Assembly: GCA_021234155.1 (NCBI GenBank)
Contig: JAJEKV010000001.1
Span: 1,239,927-1,303,926, forward strand
Direction: 5' to 3'
DNA length: 64,000 bases
Source of the DNA: Isoetes taiwanensis
Taxonomy: Eukaryota; Streptophyta; Lycopodiopsida; Isoetales; Isoetaceae
This document shows, in pieces, positions 1-38,929 of this stretch. The stretch's first letter is position 1. Each line of letters opens with the position of its first letter. The notes beneath the pieces are model-generated. The model saw nothing but the letters and a program-made list of their open reading frames with translations, made no database searches and had not been told where the DNA came from. The position numbers and the translations under genes were made by a program.

Positions 1-1198
1 CTAATGAAGTGCATGCATGACAACGAGGGGAAGTCTACTATGTTGAATAGTAGAATGCTTAAAATGTGCAAACCCAAAGGCGTGTATGACTACATAGCGA
101 GATAATTACAAAAACGGCTATGTAAGTAATTCTTAGTGGCTTTATTATAAATTTATCCGAGTCATCCTCTTAACTTAACCGCATTACGGGATATAGTGGA
201 CATTTTGATGTCGGGTAGTGCTTTGTGAAGAAAAGGTGTTGGTCAAAGGTCTATGGTACCCCATTCCTAACGAAGAGGAAGAGAAGAGGAAATAGAAGAA
301 GAAGAGGGAAGGAGGAACCGGTGGTAACAAAGGGGAGGAGCAAAGAGAGCTGCCGGTAGCAGTCTGAGAGCCTCAACCAAAAAGGCCAAAACCACAAAGA
401 CCTTGACTATAGAGGAGTCGTGAAGCTCTTGAGAAGGCTCACGGAGCGGTCTCGTTGTGAAGCCCGAGATAAGTCAAGTGCTATTCTAAAAGCGGGTTAA
501 TGACACTAAAGCTGCTCAAGCAAACTATTTCTTTGACATTGAGCACTATTAAGAGGCCACCTAAAATGAAGATGGGGTCAGGAGTGCTTTCTGGTCGGAA
601 GTCTGCTGGCGGCACATGTGGCTATCTTGAAGCAAAGAATGAGAAGGAATCCTCATGCCCATGTGTGCCACTAGTTGTAATGGTTGGCCAGTCGGTGCAA
701 CCAATTAAAAGATTACAAGAAGGCTGACTTTGAAGATTACACCTACTATGTTCTTGGAGGCACACATAGTTACAAGACAAGGAAAAAGAACTAGCAAAGG
801 AAGAAAGTAGCGAAGTGTGGAAAGCGTGGAAAGCGCATATATATGAGGATGTAACAGGATGAAGAAGCAAAAGTCATTGCCGTGAGTCATAATCACCGAC
901 AATGACTTGATTAAAATGAGTTTAATAGACAAGATCCGTTTCATGCAAGTGAATACGTGGAGTTCAAACAAGTGCATGGAGAGGACTTTAAAAAGCAAAA
1001 GAACAAGCTCGGGGAGCCGGCTTGTGTGACGAGTGCTGCCTCGGTTATGATTCTGATAAGAAGCCCATTATGGCTGTGAAACAATACGATAACTACTTTT
1101 CGGCTTGCTTTTCGAGAGATGGTCAAGTAAGTAAGCGCTTTCATTACGTCTTTTGTAGTATGTTTAGCTTTGTTTTAGCGTGGTTACAAGTGCGGAGA

Positions 1199-1354
1199 CG
1201 CGGTATAAATTTATACCGCGTGCGGGCACCTTTATAAATTATATGGGTGCCGGTCGCGGTGTTAATTTAAACGATGCGAACGCGGTATAATTTATACCGT
1301 GCCAGTCACTGATTTAAATTTATATCGTGCGAGACGCGGTATAAATTTATACCG
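1199..1354. repeat. Palindrome cluster GGTATAAATTTATACC, copy group 1
   Basis: Three near-identical palindromes at 1199-1220 (perfect over 22 bases), 1281-1300 (one A shorter) and 1339-1354. They sit in the inferred intron 1127-1448 of the broken methylase gene. A second group lies in a later intron of the same gene. Confidence 0.8.
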
Positions 1355-2438
1355 TGACTAGTCAATCGAGTGCACATTTAGGCGATGAAGCGTGCAACAA
1401 ATTCTCTTATGCCATTCAACACTAAACTACTTGCATTTGTCCATACAGGTGTGGGATCTTCAAGAGAGAATTTTTTGTATGTTCGAAGATGGTGAGCTTA
1501 AAGAACAAGCTAGCTCCGCAGGAAAGAAACCAAAAAAAGGTGGTGGATCAAAACAAAAAAATATGAGCATTGTACCCTAGACGGCGATTCTGTGGTCTAA
1601 AAGCAAAAGAAATTTTTGTTAGCCTCTTGGAAAAGTCGTGGCCAAGGAATTCACATTAGGCGAGATGGCCAAGGAAGCTAAGACATAAGCCTCATTTGCT
1701 ATGCCGTGTTTTTTTCCACCTTTTTTTGTCTTACAACATGTTTCTCTTTGCATTCAGAAAGACATTGTCACCTGCCAGGCCGAGTTAATGAAGCAGCTAA
1801 ACCTAGAGGACTGGGAGGAGTGCAAGCTTTTATACCCAAGTTGTACCACAGATAGTATCATCGAGAGAGCACTTTAACCCGGTGGTACGGGTAAGTTTTG
1901 TAGAAAATATGTTCCGTGGTGCATTGCCTTTTCTCTCGCGGTATTCTTCTGAGAACAAGAAGAAGGGGCTACCCAGCTGGATTTTAAACCTGGTTCGTGT
2001 AGGGCCAAGGAGGAGAGGCGAGACTTAAGGCAATCGAGCGAGGGAAAAGAGGTTGCCACTAGCGTTTTGACACTACTTATGAGAGATTTACAGCGTTTGG
2101 TTAGGACTTCTTGTGCAGAGTTGTTCGGGGTGATTACCACGAGGCTGGGGACACTTTTAGACAAGCAAAATTTTACATTATGCATTGCAGATATTCCCTA
2201 TGGCTTCAAAATTAAGGATAGCGCTTTTGACGAGGAGGCTTTCACCCACGTGCAAGTCCGTTCTTTTTTGGATGGCCTGAAGGAAGTCACCATATCTGCT
2301 AACTGGATGGTCATCATTTTCCATTCCAACCTCTGGAGGCGATGTGGGTGCTTAAACCTATGGGGCGATGCATGAACGCCGAACCGAAGCTGCGTTTGGT
2401 AAGCTTTACATTCAACAGCTTTTCTTTTTAGTAAGCGC

Positions 2439-2570
2439 GGTATAAATTTATACCACAACTGCCTTAAGGTTTAAATTTAAATGGCGAGGCGATGTTTGTA
2501 TAAATTTATACGGCTTGCCGCCGTGGTATAAATTTATACAGCAAGGCAACCCTCGTATAAATTTATACCG
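2439..2570. repeat. Palindrome cluster GGTATAAATTTATACC, copy group 2
   Basis: Four copies or partial copies of the same AT-rich palindrome, at 2439-2454, 2498-2511, 2525-2539 and 2555-2570. They lie in the inferred intron between the motif IV and motif I exons of the broken methylase gene. Confidence 0.8.
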
Positions 2571-3329
2571 CCACACTACTGGGCTAACTTATTTTCCTTG
2601 TTTTCATTCTACTAATATTTAATTGTTGTATTGTTTGGCGGGCTTAAAACAAGCGTCCAAGGGTCATGGTGGTGTTCAGCTTAGTGAGTTGTTTGAGCAT
2701 TTTCATATAGGTTTTTCTGGTAGCGGACGTAAAAAAAACCATGGTTCATTTCAATACGCAGAATGAGAAGACTCCTTCTGAAATGCTTTTTCGGTTCGGT
2801 TCATTTGCAGAAATTAAAGAGACCCACAGCCGACAAAGTATTTTGTGGTGTCAATATCGGGCTTCCACAGTGGCTTATTAATAATTTGTCTGATGGTTTT
2901 CTCGCCGGAGCCTGGATCTTAGATGCCTTTTACGGATCGAGGCACCACGGCAATTTGTGCTTATAAGCGGGGGCGCGCAAATGTCGTCTCGATCGACATA
3001 GACCCGGATAAAGTAAGTTTCATCGGGGACGGGATAAGCTCTTGTGAATCCTTTCTGATGAAAAGCGAGGAAGCCAGGGAGCAAAGAAGCGGTGCCAACG
3101 ATGTTAAAGGCACTTATCTGAAATCTGACCTCCACTTACGGGGAAGAAAAGATGAGGAGGTGGAGTTTATCGACTTGGAGCCTGTGGTGCCTGAGCTCGA
3201 AAAACCGCCTATGCCGGTAGGATTGGAATCGAGGGGCGTCTCTGTTTGTTGTAAGCTTCGCAAGAGCGGATCTAAGGGGATGAGAGTCACGTGGATTTTG
3301 GGAAGAACCACCTCCCCACCTCTATTATA

Positions 3330-4440
3330 ATTTTATCTGCAGACGAGTTCTTAACTACTTCCATTGTAAACTATGTGCTAAGTATTATTATAATTTATTT
3401 TGATGAAGATTTTTTTAAACCGAAAGCTTTGTCTCTTCAACAATGCTTAATTAGAACAACTCTTTCTTGCTCCATGATTTCACACTCTTTGTCTTTCCAA
3501 TGTTTAATTTTCTTAGTACTTATATTAAGCTTGCAAAAAGACAAACTATATTTCCTTCTGTTTTTAACAATAAATACTTACTGAGTTATCAAAATTAATG
3601 TCTCTCTCCTCAAAACAAGCATTTTTTTTTGCCCTCTTTTAAAAATGAAAAGGCTTCAAAAATGTTGCTTTTTCGGGGGTATTCCGAATGCTAATTGCTC
3701 AACAATCTATTTTGCTCCCTATTTTGTGTGTTTTTTTCAAGTTTTCAATTTTTATAAAGGAATCTTTCAAACGCACTTCTTAAATAAGTGCGTTTCATTT
3801 TAAACCTTGTTATTTGAACTATGTGAAGACATAACATCAAAATCGCCACATCTTCAAATATATCAAGGATGTGCTAAAAGCTATCAAAACATATTCTCTC
3901 CACCTCTCTATTTATCGGGGAATCAAATCGCATAGATTAATTCCAGCAGTTAAGACTCTTGAAGTCAATAGAGTTGAAAAGATGTTGTGTGTTTTATCTT
4001 AACTATTTTTGCATGATGTGTTTAAATTGGTGAAATGTGTGCATAAATTGAGAACAATATGGGTGTAATGTGGAGAAAATGAAAACAATGTGCAAATATT
4101 GTGGATGAAGCATTTATGATGTATTGAAGTTGAACTTATGGACTTGAAGGTGTATAAGAGTCCTTTTCAATGGTTAAAGCATGGGGTGAGGTGGCGCAAT
4201 CCTAGGAGACATGTAATTTATTGGAGATCTAATGGTGGAGATTGTTCAAAGATGAAGGGCTAGGATTTGTTGTGTAAGTTTAAGAGGAGGGGTACATCTC
4301 CTCATTCCCTCTCTCTCACTCTTGTGTCTTGAAGGAGATCTATTATAGTAGAGTGTATCCCATGGAAGAATTAACAATAGGAGAGGAGGATGAACCTCCA
4401 GACTTATTTTATCTCTCTCCTTCTTCATCTGCAATTTGTG
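3330..4440. other. AT-rich intergenic stretch
   Basis: About 1.1 kb of AT-rich DNA after the methylase relic, with homopolymer runs and short open frames only. I see no gene, terminal repeat or RNA gene here. Confidence 0.5.
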
Positions 4441-15342: not shown

Positions 15343-15590
15343 GCCAGTTTTAAGCTGTTTGTTTTGGTAGTTTTTTGTTCTAACAACTCTAGCTTTTCAA
15401 GGTCTTGAGGTATTTATGAGCAAAAATAGTTTTTGAAGGGATCTGTGCATGCTTTTGAAGGAAAAGCAGAGCTGTTTTGGTAAGTTTCTTCAAGAAGAAG
15501 CAGAAGGAGAAGGAAAGAACTTTTAGCTGTTAGATGCAAGTTGTCTAACATTGCAATTAAGTTTGGAATAATTCTATTTTACTCAAGCAC

Positions 15591-18002
15591 ATGGGGAGCA
15601 TCAGTATAGAAGAAGGGGGAACAGATATGGCATCGAGGCGAGGAGGCGGTCCTGCGCGGTTAAATCAGCATGGTCGATATGAGGAGCTTAGCAATCCAAG
15701 TGCAAGATGGAGCAATTTAGGCTCCCTCCAAGACAAGAATCAAAGGCTCACCAAGTCTGTCAAACTATGGATAGCCACCATCTCTGTTCTGGTTATGGTT
15801 ATAGTCATAGTTTGCCTCACAGTTTTTATTCCAAGGTCTGGAGACAGTTCCAAAGTTGAAATCAAGAGACATAAAAACAAGATCACAACTCAAGTCCCTC
15901 TTGTTTGCCAAGCAACCAGGTACCAAGATGTCTGTCTCTCTTCTTTGACTTCTGATACTAGATCTAAACAAGCCTCTGCTCCAGATCTGGTCCTCATAGC
16001 CATAGATGTTGCATCTTTAGGTACTAAACAGAGCTTGGTCTTGTCAAAAAATTTGTTACAAGATGCTGGCAGTAATAATCCAAACCTCACCGCTGCAGCA
16101 CAAGATTGCACTGAGGTTTTGAGCTATGCTCTTAGATGGATGGATATTTGCAAAAGTTCCAATCTCAGTTCTCAGGTGAAGGATATTCAGCAATATTTAA
16201 GTGCTGTGATGTCTTATCAGTATGATTGCAACCAGGCTTTGAGCTATGTCAATACTTCTACAGATGTTGGACAGACTATGGTGCAGGTTCAGTCTGTATT
16301 GCCTCTGATTAGCAATGCTCTATCCATGGCTGATGCCTTTGATTTTTATGGACCTGATCCCACAAACTGGAAACCCCTGCTTCTAAAAAGAGGGCAATCT
16401 TCTGCAATTTCTTCTAGATCACATACTAACAACCATCACAACCAGCATCATGCAAATGATGCAGATTTGTTGAGCAAACCCGCCGCGGAAATTTCTCCCT
16501 CTACCGTTGTCAGCAAGGATGGATCTGGCCAGTTCTCTAAGATCCAAGATGCTGTAAACAGAGCTCCTGATTACAGCTTCCAAAGATACATAATTTATAT
16601 CAAGGCAGGGACTTATGAGGAGACAATTGTAGTTCCTGAGAGCAAAAATATGCTCATGTTTATTGGAGATGGAGTGAATAATACGGTGATTACAGGAAGC
16701 AACTATTTCCACGAAGGAGTGAACACCATGGACACTTTTACAATGAGTAAGGCCTCCATCCCCTTTGCTCTGTTATATCTGTTTTGGGTAGAAATTTGCA
16801 ATCTAGTTGTTCAGATTACCTCTGGAACTGGGAAACATCAAAAGCCCAAAAATCAGATGTACAGTTTGCAGTTTTGGATTCAAAACCGCCATCAAGTACA
16901 GCCCATTTTTAGACGAGTTCATCTTTTTCTTTCAAAATCTGCAACAGAATTACTTTGAGGAGTTCTAAGTACATGAAGAATCAACTTTCTGACAACCCAA
17001 GCACTGCAATGAATCTAGTCTTACAAAACCACCTCTTCATAGGATTAATAGATCTCAGGATTGAGTGAGGACTAGATTCACGTATTCAATTTGAGCGTTG
17101 ATAGCAGGATTTGATGTTTAGAGCTAAAACCCCAAATCTCAAAGGAAAAAAGAGCACTCTGATTTATTTGCACATGCTGCTGATGAAGAACCTTTGATCT
17201 ACATTTAAAGGAAAAAAAAAAATGAAACCTGTAAAAAGGGAGGAAGAGGTCTGCTCTATGAAACAGAGGATAAATCTAACTGATGGGTTATGTTGATGCA
17301 GAAATCGTTGGAAATGGCTTTCTGGCAAGAGATTTAACAGTTGAAAACACAGCAGGACCAGAGTTACATCAAGCAGTGGCACTAAGGCTAGACGGAGATG
17401 AAGCAGCCTTCCATGGATGTTCCTTCACAGGTTTTCAAGACACACTATATTCTCACACATTGCGCCACTACTTCAAAGACTGCACAATCATAGGCACCAT
17501 AGATTTTATCTTTGGAAATGCAGCCACATACTTCGAGAACTGCAACATCTTCATACGCAAAGGCCGCCCAGGCGCTGGACTTAGTACTGTAACTGCACAT
17601 GGGCGCATAGATCCTGCACAAACCACCGGATTTGTCTTTAAAAACTGCTCAATCCAAGGAACCCAAGATTATATGGATCAATATCACGCTGAACCCAACA
17701 AGCATAGGGCTTATCTGGGCCGACCTTGGAAGCTTTATTCCAGATCTGTTTTTTTAAACAGCTTTATGGGCGAATTGATCCACTCAGATGGGTGGCTTGC
17801 TTGGAGCGGAAGTTTTGCCCTTGATACTCTGTTTTTTGCCGAATTTCAAAGCTATGGCCCTGGTGGTAGCAGCGCCGGAAGAGTTCCTTGGTCTTCTCAA
17901 CTCTCTGCCTCTGATGTTGAGAAGTTCAGTATTGAAAGTTTTATTCAGGGCAAAGCTTGGCTTCCGGCAACTAATATTCCTTTTGGGTCTCCCTCTTCCT
18001 GA
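15591..18002 (+). CDS. Type-I pectin methylesterase with inhibitor pro-domain (pectinesterase)
   Basis: Removes methyl esters from cell-wall homogalacturonan. Two exons, 15591-16746 and 17302-18002. The intron 16747-17301 (GTAAGG...GCAG) joins in phase (THR-MET-LYS, then IVGNGFLARD) and gives 618 residues. Residues 57-81 form a hydrophobic membrane/signal-anchor segment. An inhibitor-like pro-domain spans about 101-250, with cysteines 106, 115, 173 and 213. After a His/Asn-rich linker, the catalytic beta-helix runs about 304-610. It keeps every active-site motif: HQAVALR (Q409), GFQDTLY (Q431, D432), GTIDFIFG (D453) and YLGRPW (R526), with family-like spacing. Only a weak basic LLKRG lies near the pro/catalytic boundary, not a clear RRLL site. 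The start follows a TATA box and leader. Reading through the donor would add a false tail ending at 16958. It is the one clearly intact host gene in the window. Confidence 0.95.
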
Positions 18003-35356: not shown

Positions 35357-38300
35357 ATGGAAGACCGATATAGGTCTAGAATCCTATGTAAGTGCGCATT
35401 ATGTCTTGCTGTGAATCATGAAGGTTGTTACATTAGCAGACAAAGATACAGATCTCACCAACGCCGTCCATAGTGCAAAAACAGAAGACTGTGTGACAGA
35501 TTAGAAAAAGGGGGTAAAATTGTTTGCACTTGTACTATTTGCGTTACAAAGTGCCCTGCTGGAGTGCCTTTTAGTCATTCTGGTTATATGCATCATGTTC
35601 AGAGTGTCAAAATAAAGGAGCAGGGCAGTTCTTTAATTGAGTTGCAGGAGAAGAATGTGTCTCAAAAGGGTTTGGAAGGCATCAACATTGTGGTTGATGA
35701 AACAGCAAACCATATGCACTTAGATAATGAGCCGCCGGACCAACCAGAACCAATGCAGAATGAGGCACCCGTGTCGAATGAAGCAGACAATTTATGCAAT
35801 GATGCATATGATGAAATGCGGATTGCAAGTTTAGATGATCAATTTCTAGCATGCCTGGTCGAAATTCAAAGCTGTTTGGACATGCACAATGTCCCTGAAA
35901 AGCTTCAAAACGATTTGTTCAGATTGCTTTTCCAAAGCAAGGCTGGTAGTGGTCTTGCATCCATAATTGCCGAGAAAACAATTGCTGAAAAAGGAAAATG
36001 GACTGGAATGGTGAATGGGTTTCGTGTTCCAACCAGCTTGAAATGCATGAAGCAAATGTATCAAGACATGGGGCTCCCTTGCCTGCAAAGGCATACAATA
36101 TGCATACATGATGATGGCCAGGCAGTTTACAGATTCAAAGTTATTAATGATGGTGTTACATTGAGTTGCAGTTGCAAGAGAAAAATAAATGGTGTATTGG
36201 TGAGAACGTCAAGATGTCTTAAGCATGAAACTGTACAGTTTGCCAGAAGACACGAAAGGATGGAGTGACATTTTTATACAATCCGATTAGTTACATTCTG
36301 AAATTAAGGTGCAGAAGTAAGAGCATAGGTTACAGTGACATTGAGCATTGGCGTCAACGAGATACTTGGCTTGGGAAAGGACTTCACGAAAGTCCTGCAG
36401 CAATTTCTGAATGTTGGCATGCTAGGCGATGGAGGGAAATGCAATATTTCTGGGATCCAAGCACGAAATGGGAACTGCCAATTATTTGCAAGCATTGCCA
36501 AACAATTCTGCAGACATGGCCGTTGGGAAGTCGAGCAGAATGCATCATACATGCAGGGTTCGATTCATCAACCAATCATTACATTGTAACATGCCCCCAA
36601 TGTCTTAGGGAAGATTCATATGCAAGGCATGAGTGCTTTGGAGATCCAAGGAATTTAGCCCTTTTACTGCATTGGGATGGGTTTCAGTCAACCCGGAGCA
36701 CGGTGAGAAGTAGTGGTGTCGTTCGCCTTGTGGCATTAAATGGAGGAAAAGGTCAAGATTCCAAAGTGAAAGAACTAACATTTCCAGTTCTGTTTATTCC
36801 TAAAGAGGAGATCAATTCTGGCACTAACAGTCTCGATCCCTTTCTTGAGCCTTTGATTCAAGAGTTAAGAAACCTTTATGTAACAGGACTGGAGGTGAAC
36901 TACGCACTTGATGCTAATGTTATTCATCCAGGGTTGCCGCAAGTTTTTCATCAAAGGTGTATTCTATATGCTATTACAGCAGACCATCCTGCACAATGTG
37001 AAGTTTTGAAATTGTCTTCTAGTAAGCGCCTATGTCCTTATTAAACCATAATAGAATATCATTCTGATTCTTGCTTCTTTGTTGTGGACAGGTGGGAAAG
37101 TTCCGTGTAGACGATGTGATATTGTATTGTCAATTTCTTCAGACAACTCATATTACTATAATGACTTGTTGAAGCTTAACACGTATTCGGATAAGAAGAA
37201 AACAATGGAACATGTGTTTAATGGTATTGAACAGTTGAAAGATGGTATTCCAAATGCAGCTCGTAATACGGATCTGGTGTGTTCGTGGGCCTAGTATGTT
37301 CTTGAGTTTGTATCAACTATATGGATTTGATCTGCTCCATCATTCGGCCGTGGACCTCATGCATACAATGGCTTTAAACATGTGTTACAAATGCAACAAG
37401 AGAATGTTTGAGCAAGTTAAACAAGCAGGTAATGAGAGGACTGCTATGGAGAGATTACAAAATGTAATAACGGCAAGAACTCGCCGTATGAAAGATGGCA
37501 GGTGTCCACGAGACCCATTCAAGCGGTTTGGCTTTTTCAAAGCACAAGAACAACAGGTTTTTTGCCAGTGGTATGCTGATTATGTGCTCGCGGGCTTGGT
37601 AAGTGAAGATGATTTTAGTATATCACAAATTGTGACAGATTTGACTCGGATATTTTTTGATTATGCCCGCACAAATGGATGGACATTAGAAATAAAGGAC
37701 GTTGCAAAGAAATTGTTGCAGGCTTGGCGCATTCGTTGGAATGAGCTTTGTGGTCCTAACACCTCTCCATTGGAGCACATGGCAGGAGAATGCCATATTT
37801 TGGATGATGTAGACATCATTGGCCCTCCAGATGCGACTTGGTGTTATTTTTTTGAGAGCACCTTTGCAAAGCTGTTACAGATGCCAACAAACAAGAAAGA
37901 CATGGAAGTAACATATGCTCGTGTAGAGGCCCGTCTTTTGTATTCCAAAATTTATCGTATGAACTCTCTAGACAGGGATGGGTTGCTACCTCATGAACGT
38001 GGCGAATTATATTTGCGGTCAGCTTTGGTAGGTATTGAAGATGGCAAGTCATTTGCGTCTATGTCTAAATCTGTCTCAAATGGAGGCATCATCCGTGCAA
38101 GTTCTCAAAACATGGCCATTGAGCTGTGGTCAACATACAAAAGACATAATTTAGAGGCTTGGAAAAACATTATTTCCAACAAAGGCATACTTATTGGCTG
38201 TGGAAAGGCAAGGGAAGAGGAAATTTACCTTCAAAAGGCATAATGGTCTCAGTGGTCTATCTCAGTCCATTGTAACACAATATAAGGGAATCTTGCTTGC

Positions 38301-38929
38301 GGGATGAGGACATTTGTGATGGACAATGGTATGGTAAGCTCAGGTATATTTTTTCCCATAAAGAAGGATCTGAAACAAGTGTATATTTTGCAGCAGATTA
38401 TTATAGATATCAGGTGCTAAATGCTAGTATCAATCTTGATGAGGCAACTGGAATGCCCATTTTGGCGGAAGGAATGGAGCCTTTTGATTATGAGTCAATC
38501 TTGCCAGTACGCTATATACTTCGAGAAATATGCATTCTGCCCATGAGGACAGCTGGGGATACAAGAAGTATTGCACTTGAGACAAAAACTGTGACTTTGC
38601 CAAATAGGCTACTTCAATTGCATAAGCCTGGAACTATTCCTATTTGGCCCTTAGAGGAGGATGTTGTTGCTGTTCAAGCTATCAAGCATGGATCTGCACC
38701 CCATTTGACCTCATCTGATGGTTGCTGGTATGCTCTTGTTGATGCAGTGAATGAAAAAGACAAAAAAGTGAAGATTACATGGTTGGATTTAACAAACAAG
38801 AGAGGAGCACGATGTTTGGTACCATCTTACGAGGAGAAGAGGTGGCAGTCTTGGGATTGTCTTCTAAAGGTGTTGACTGTTAGAAAAAGTGGCATTGGAC
38901 GACGTGCTTTTTACTATCTATTGGATTGA
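35357..38929 (+). pseudogene. Tnp2-like transposase of the CACTA-like element, frame-broken
   Basis: Cuts and joins the element ends in CACTA elements. ATG at 35357 starts a Cys-rich finger (CKCALCLAVNHEGCYISRQR, YRSH). After an in-frame TAG (35471-35473) a second similar finger follows (CTCTICVTKCPAGVPFSHSG, YMHH). The main body has LLHWDGFQSTRSTVRSSG, FIPKEEINSGTNSLDPFLEP, LIQELRNLYVTG and GKVPCRRCD, in the order of the Tnp2 family. A clean 70-bp intron (37022-37091, GTAAGC...ACAG) joins in phase. Later blocks are VRGPSMFLSLY, HHSAVDLMHTMALNM and ECHILDDVDIIGPP. The last part (38297-38929) resembles the C-terminal region of these proteins. Frames shift near 36255, 37280, 38237 and 38290, so it appears inactive unless some breaks are assembly errors. 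Confidence 0.8.

Follow-up and report, generated by a model that had tools for sequence, protein, structure and literature searches.

A stretch of 64,000 nucleotides from Isoetes taiwanensis (GCA_021234155.1, contig JAJEKV010000001.1, positions 1,239,927–1,303,926; hereafter the window) contains, at positions 269–3302, a frameshifted, intron-bearing gene in which a ParB-like part is followed by a beta-class DNA methylase. This gene is one half of an 8.0–8.5 kb cut-and-paste DNA transposon, whose other half is a divergently oriented DUF7869 gene. The window thus carries a decayed copy of a plant transposon family, and we consider it somewhat more probable than not that the methylase of this family marks the DNA of the element, its ParB-like part recognizing palindromes that the elements carry.

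The motifs of the window gene are distributed over different reading frames because this copy is frameshifted: GGTHSYK lies at 757–777 and EEAKVIAVSHNH at approximately 861–899, ADIPYGFKIKD within the open reading frame (ORF) 1953–2375, DAFYGS within ORF 2733–2966 and GTTAICAYKRGRA within ORF 2923–3330. Since the copy is broken, a Pfam scan of seven window ORFs matched neither PF01555 nor ParB, every match being under the cut-off. The motifs belong to one gene, since relatives carry them jointly; in the copy designated C976 they are joined in a single spliced frame, and tblastn with the C976 protein gave a best joined match to the window copy of E 2e-36. The window exons are 80–89% identical in DNA sequence to those of another copy, C1036, relative to which the ParB exon and the exon blocks after it, five in all, contain 64 indels (58 of them not multiples of three). 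A GTAAGT donor follows the ParB-like exon in both copies, and the stop region of the window gene is located just past 3302. A previous sequence-only reading had described a broken but intron-bearing gene at 480–3260, with motif IV followed by motif I and with GGTHSYK and EAK...HNH blocks upstream. All of these blocks are present in the sequence, and the broken, intron-bearing structure was borne out. The coordinates proved too narrow: the gene begins before window position 1, and the element runs on to 3811.

The genome searched comprises 1,658,258,908 bases in 1110 contigs. A scan with PF01555 yielded 1443 first-look candidates, the best 150 of which were scored (top E 3e-17); most of these 150 stretches are stop-free. 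Intact paralogs were sought in the same genome, and open-frame copies indeed exist. C976 has a 943-codon open frame in five modelled exons with GT-AG introns and with the motifs in order, in a gene model in which no upstream first exon was identified. Its protein matches PF01555 with E 9e-18 (residues 759–847; 65.5 bits, gathering score 26.7), in agreement with the methylase class proposed earlier, as well as a PHROG DNA methyltransferase (E 5e-27) and the CcrM structure 6pbd (E 1e-9; profile 2.5e-13). In 5/5 aligned copies motif IV (AD[LI]PYGF) precedes motif I (DAFSGSGTT), both being intact, which is the order of the beta class. The structures nearest to the methylase profile are CcrM, MboIIA and RsrI. 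The first two are adenine enzymes by record name and RsrI is likewise an adenine enzyme; the N4-cytosine entry 8s9m gave a much weaker match (E 0.005). Judging from D[LI]PY at motif IV, the element methylase is predicted to target probably adenine rather than the N4 position of cytosine.

The earlier description of the gene as a ParB–methylase fusion holds for the methylase; its ParB half was not recovered with PF02195. No curated cut-off was ever reached by the ParB-like part in the Pfam profile search, and the structure search matched no ParB structure. Of five members examined, each ParB PHROG matched one or two, with E values of 0.0021, 0.017 and 0.03, within a weak range for ParB-like phage families of 0.002–0.08. 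DUF6551 was detected in 5/5 members (best E 0.0066, or 0.0023 for one exon; overall range 0.002–0.11), a level comparable to that reached in one member by the unrelated family IgA0_D2 (E 0.0049). Among the phage relatives obtained with the methylase profile, L034 and L035 contain ParB followed by methylase, with both PF02195 and PF01555 above the cut-off in L035, and L033 contains a methylase alone. When the plant proteins were compared with the phage ParB-methylases by hhalign, the methylase parts aligned with E 6e-8 over motifs IV to I. The ParB parts gave E 0.26, yet they are colinear from GGNHSFKAR to EEAKIIANTHNADNE, a stretch that we take to be boxes II–III. Remote matches to the ParB-methylase query were obtained in 367 phage records, none over 80% of the query, and the 20 matches listed concern the methylase part only (23–28% identity). 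ParB-methylase relatives were detected in viral contigs neither with the C976 protein nor with profile A1, three remote ones being found with profile A2, and none was found in the genome contigs scanned; at that sensitivity such absence is weak evidence.

The boundaries of the transposon were determined from nine full-length copies of 8039–8536 bases, which have inverted termini and, in 9/9 cases, perfect 4-bp target duplications (identified by eye and verified by script), confirming that the gene is transposon-borne, as had been suspected. The duplications are TTAA, ATAT, CATT, TAAG, AAAC and GACC in the six copies of subfamily 1, and GCTG, CCTT and GGAT in the three of subfamily 2. Eight of the nine start with AACAA and eight end with TGTT; C1066 is one letter off at each end. 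Subfamily 1 typically starts with AACAAGATTGCGTATTAAACGGGAG and ends with CTCCCGTTTAATTTGCAACCTTGTT, with small differences from copy to copy, and subfamily 2, which includes the window copy, starts with AACAAAGTTTAAAATGAAACGCACTT and ends with AAGTGCGTTTCATTTTAAACCTTGTT. Subfamily 3 (L122 and L124) starts with AACAACGTTC; the retrieved stretch yielded no right end for it, and a search for the left end of C1093 was likewise negative. The subfamily-2 terminus was matched 992 + 980 times in the genome at no more than two mismatches, a count that covers both ends and gene-less derivatives, and never in a reversed control.

The window copy is homologous to C1078, C1036 and C1076, all of them full-length, from L011:2680 (G000:C907:1236606) on the left to window position 3811 on the right. 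Approximately 0.6 kb of the left part, including the left terminus, is gone, and because of this truncation the left end was found neither with a terminal-repeat word nor by local alignment. A hairpin at the right end was considered as the element terminus and rejected, since homology extends beyond it. The remnant of the DUF7869 gene adjoins the window on the left, and both genes of this copy are decayed. In a DNA search with window positions 1900–3811 (best 40 of 1377 candidates scored, self included), long matches elsewhere are 81–90% identical and one shorter piece is 93% identical. Contamination was ruled out, as the matches lie on contigs of up to 53 Mb and have introns and target duplications; the plant residence claimed in the sequence-only reading thus stands. 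Beside the C976 insertion, a frame at L001:132–761 (minus strand) resembles a pentatricopeptide repeat protein by eye, so that the insertion may lie in a host gene or close to one. Further frames, at L010:827–3673 (minus strand) and downstream of a methylase copy, gave no significant Pfam match; one of them contains DNMDQSKTCLP, and they possibly represent another transposase family.

The DUF7869 gene is located on the opposite strand, upstream of the methylase gene (PF25273, E 1e-52 in L012). A genome scan for DUF7869 gave 9907 candidates, the best 150 of which were scored. Between these and the best 150 methylase places there are 24 pairs at most 20 kb apart, compared with 0.54 expected under uniform placement. 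Divergent orientation with DUF7869 upstream was observed in 22 of the 24, 17 of these at a distance of 5.1–6.0 kb, the two exceptions being C1042:4501013 and C907:51149409. Four places were then taken from the top five of the DUF7869 ranking, all of them lacking a scored methylase at distances of up to 20 kb; three of the four bear a ParB-methylase on the divergent side. The motifs IDGMD, LQLDN and GHTHDQID are invariant in three aligned DUF7869 copies. Because of these motifs, together with the Sola2-like 4-bp duplications, DUF7869 is likely to be the transposase.

Analysis of seven subfamily-1 copies (21 pairs) by the Nei-Gojobori method showed that both element genes are under purifying selection. 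The ratio of nonsynonymous to synonymous substitution rates (dN/dS) of the methylase gene is 0.05–0.19 in 6 of the 21 pairs, the other 15 being saturated at synonymous sites, and that of DUF7869 is 0.09–0.34 (mean 0.15) in 21/21 pairs. When the gene was divided into parts (seven pairs, unsaturated values only), dN/dS was 0.05–0.07 for the ParB-like region and 0.03–0.21 for the methylase; the N-terminal region (0.12–0.38) diverges faster in amino acid sequence, and for the C-terminal tail one pair gives a value as high as 0.63. Alignment gaps apart, stops are absent from the modelled methylase frame in two of the seven copies and number 1–4 in the other five. These results bear on the idea of the methylase as a neutral passenger, or as the remnant of an endogenous virus that hitch-hikes on the element. 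The broken window copy and the remote matches in phage records would fit such an origin, but we regard it as highly improbable given the purifying selection on both the ParB and the methylase parts and the association of the methylase with the element in three subfamilies. For a virus in particular, the DUF7869 profile A3 found no relative in viral contigs, and the C976 DUF7869 protein found none in phages.

The two genes have not always been inherited together. Between C1051 and C1057 the synonymous divergence is 0.06 in DUF7869 and approximately 1.4 in the methylase gene, and the divergence between C1034a and C1034b is concentrated in the middle; these comparisons indicate that modules are swapped between elements. 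Mosaic elements were observed among the C1051, C1057 and C1034 copies (L012, L017–L020, L023–L024), with a near-identical transposase module and a near-saturated methylase module, or with divergence chiefly of the middle module.

The elements carry arrays of palindromes in a shared GTAT-N6-ATAC frame, which was noticed after the fact. Perfect palindromes of at least 14 bp number 2–25 per element in 13 elements, whereas the means of Markov controls are 0.15–0.85. The core is characteristic of the subfamily: TCCGGA (1), AAATTT (2) or GAATTC (3). L122 and L124 each contain five GAATTC copies and one AAATTT unit, and in two units of C1034b the core is shortened to TCGA, which is again self-complementary. 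Self-complementary units account for 92/95 across five subfamily-2 elements and for 6/10 and 6/9 in subfamily 3. Of the 21 palindromes of C1036, 20 are located in introns and the central region rather than in methylase exons, and the remaining one overlaps the end of the methylase frame, at its final codon and stop. Two palindromes of C1078 overlap DUF7869 coding sequence, at the 5′ end of its open frame. Common variants in subfamily 1 are GTATTCCAGAATAC and GTATTCTGGAATAC, the expected products of deamination of 5-methylcytosine (5mC) at the CpG in the centre of the core; their frequency suggests host methylation of the sites of this subfamily.

Window positions 3812–64000 and 45,099 bases flanking nine elements contain no unit of the four core types, nor indeed any GTAT-N6-ATAC unit that is self-complementary. 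In the whole genome CGGTATAAATTTATACCG occurs 4415 times and AAAGTGTATTCCGGAATACACTTT 1474 times, and the reversed patterns do not occur. Six of these sites, taken from the first places listed, were inspected. Three belong to subfamily 1 and adjoin remnants of the methylase gene. The other three, of subfamily 2, are near subfamily-2 termini, with no methylase detected; two of them lie in derivatives of 2.2 kb that retain both termini (L116 has a target duplication and L118 has none, a short DUF7869 remnant being located immediately outside L118), and at the third only the left terminus was found. Retention of palindromes in gene-less derivatives would fit a cis-acting site, but hitch-hiking predicts it too.

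In the mechanism that we favour, the ParB-like domain, as a dimer, would recognize the palindromes and direct the methylase to the control region of the element itself, where the enzyme would place the predicted adenine mark as a label on element DNA. The mark would most likely shield the element promoter from host silencing of the 5mC type, or would time transposition. An extension that we put forward tentatively, and hold to be rather doubtful, is self-recognition: ParB-like methylase and parS-like arrays would diverge together, so that each subfamily tags its own copies, gene-less derivatives included, with N6-methyladenine (6mA) for anti-silencing or copy control.

Several points weigh against this mechanism. 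The target base is deduced from a single motif and from remote structures, and the ParB assignment, sub-threshold in hhalign and with no ParB hit in the structure search, is a weak point. C1066 has only two perfect palindromes, which is unexceptional given a control maximum of two, and C1034b has three. In subfamily 1 only 1–6 of 6–12 units per copy are self-complementary GTAT...ATAC. Among the best 150 of each listed, 126 of the 150 methylase places have no DUF7869 within 20 kb. Conversely, L123 has palindromes and DUF7869, with no methylase detected within 10 kb. Finally, palindrome type tracks the subfamilies of DUF7869 and of ParB to the same extent. As the putative binder of the palindromes, DUF7869 is about as well supported as ParB, because the subfamilies of both genes change together. 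It is quite conceivable, though less likely than the mechanism above, that the arrays serve the DUF7869 transposase as sites, or represent simple minisatellites, and are unrelated to the methylase. This co-variation, the L123 element and the variable number of array units among copies all suit that explanation; it accounts less well for arrays that occur mid-element and within introns of the methylase gene, away from the ends, and slippage alone does not predict that cores remain self-complementary through symmetric changes.

The mark may also serve a different end. Dam controls transposition of some bacterial elements, and by analogy the methylase might time transposition rather than counter silencing, with sites near the ends or promoter being methylated so that only freshly replicated or hemimethylated copies move. 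The palindromic subterminal motifs at the right end and the position of arrays between two divergent genes are compatible with such control, which we nevertheless judge unlikely in view of the large arrays located mid-element and in introns, away from the termini. The ParB-like part could also be a nicking nuclease from which the methylase protects self DNA, in a miniature restriction-modification pair. Bce_0392, in which a nicking ParB domain is coupled to an adenine methylase, offers a precedent (PMC5512222), and the phage proteins of L034 and L035 have the same ParB-then-methylase order. As nicking by Bce_0392 is described there as sequence-nonspecific, the palindrome arrays would be left unexplained, and we see little probability in this scheme as a whole; the ParB-like part itself may nevertheless have a nuclease role, given that Bce_0392 nicks via its ParB domain. 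The label-by-recognition mechanism, with putative binding of the palindromes by the ParB-like part, remains the reading that we prefer.

The element resembles several known systems, which are compared here as the cited papers describe them. Like prokaryotic and phage ParB-methylase fusions (Bce_0392 type; L034/L035), it has a ParB-like domain ahead of a beta-class methylase. The phage proteins are encoded by single open frames, whereas the plant gene is spliced and has an extra N-terminal region, in addition to the distant ParB match noted above. Sola2 DNA transposons have 4-bp target duplications, inverted termini of 12–21 bp and a Fanzor passenger (PMC3627910); the element shares the 4-bp duplications, short inverted termini and the presence of a passenger protein, but its passenger is a ParB-methylase, and Sola2 was compared by description rather than by transposase sequence. 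Dinoflagellate and charophyte retrotransposons carry DNA methyltransferases under purifying selection (PMC5890265) and are likewise selfish elements with their own selected methylase, although those enzymes are C5-cytosine methyltransferases of host origin, in contrast to a bacterial-type amino-methylase on a cut-and-paste element. DIRS retrotransposons carry adenine methylases (PMC5890265) but belong to another class of elements, the comparison being one by description, and giant-virus Mariner elements also carry methylases (PMC3627910). Bdelloid N4CMT and the Marchantia N4-cytosine methylase are bacterial-type amino-methylases of eukaryotes too, N4CMT being of the same beta class, but they are host genes; N4CMT has SPPY and a chromodomain (PMC8885841), where the element methylase has D[LI]PY and the C976 protein gave no chromodomain match in a Pfam scan. 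KDZ and other fungal transposons carry TET/JBP genes, and Zisupton makes 8-bp duplications (PMC12730594); these are also transposons with a DNA-modification enzyme, differing in that it is a dioxygenase and in their transposases.

In the literature searched, outside which most subscription journals lie, no paper was found that deals with DUF7869 or with a plant transposon carrying a ParB-methylase. Methylases borne by transposons and ParB-methylases of prokaryotes were already known; what appears to be new is a plant transposon that combines a ParB-methylase with GTAT-N6-ATAC arrays.

Amino-methylation in plants (6mA and N4-methylcytosine) is under dispute, and to our knowledge most of its writers have yet to be identified. 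An abundant family with a conserved bacterial-type methylase provides a concrete candidate writer and, in the arrays, a place to look. Such a methylase would explain plant amino-methylation without any host function. Should the palindromes be the sites of the methylase, selfish DNA would possess a sequence-specific self-label, a new move in the contest between transposons and silencing, and plant 6mA maps would have to be used with caution.

The features of the element in the window are collected in Table 1.

Table 1. Features of the transposon copy at the left end of the window.
Feature	Position	Strand	Basis
Decayed two-gene DNA transposon, right-hand part	1..3811	.	Homology to full-length C1078, C1036, C1076
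N-terminal region of ParB-methylase gene, its end	1..96	+	DNA alignment to C1036, 74% identity; gene start at about −218, left of the window
ParB-like exon (GGTHSYK, EEAKVIAVSHNH), frameshifted	269..1126	+	86.5% identity and 29 indels relative to C1036 (845 bases compared); tblastn with C976 protein
Two perfect palindromes GTATAAATTTATAC	1203..1352 (starts 1203, 1339)	.	Intron after ParB exon
Exon B (VWDLQERIF...)	1446..1676	+	88.7% identity to C1036
Exon C (DIVTCQAELMKQLNLEDWEEC...)	1755..1890	+	87.5% identity to C1036
Exon D, methylase motif IV ADIPYGFKIKD	1950..2399	+	86.5% identity to C1036; AD[LI]PYGF in 5/5 aligned copies
Four perfect palindromes GTATAAATTTATAC	2440..2568 (starts 2440, 2498, 2526, 2555)	.	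Intron between exons D and E
Exon E, methylase motif I (DAFSGSGTTAVCALKQGRN in C1036), indel-broken	2646..3302	+	80% identity to C1036; PF01555 in open copies
Subterminal palindrome AAACGCACTT...AAGTGCGTTT	3769..3795	.	Read in the sequence; same place in C1078, C1036, C1076 (C1076 one mismatch)
Right terminal inverted repeat AAGTGCGTTTCATTTTAAACCTTGTT	3786..3811	+	Copy comparison

Elsewhere in the window, a plant pectinesterase gene with a PMEI domain was identified at 15561–18002 as two exon-sized frames (PF04043, 1e-21; PF01095, 6e-23 and 8e-83). A run of open frames at 35474–38929 contains a weak match to Transposase_21 (tnp2) within 36229–37044, below the cut-off at E 1.7e-5, and possibly represents a CACTA-like element.

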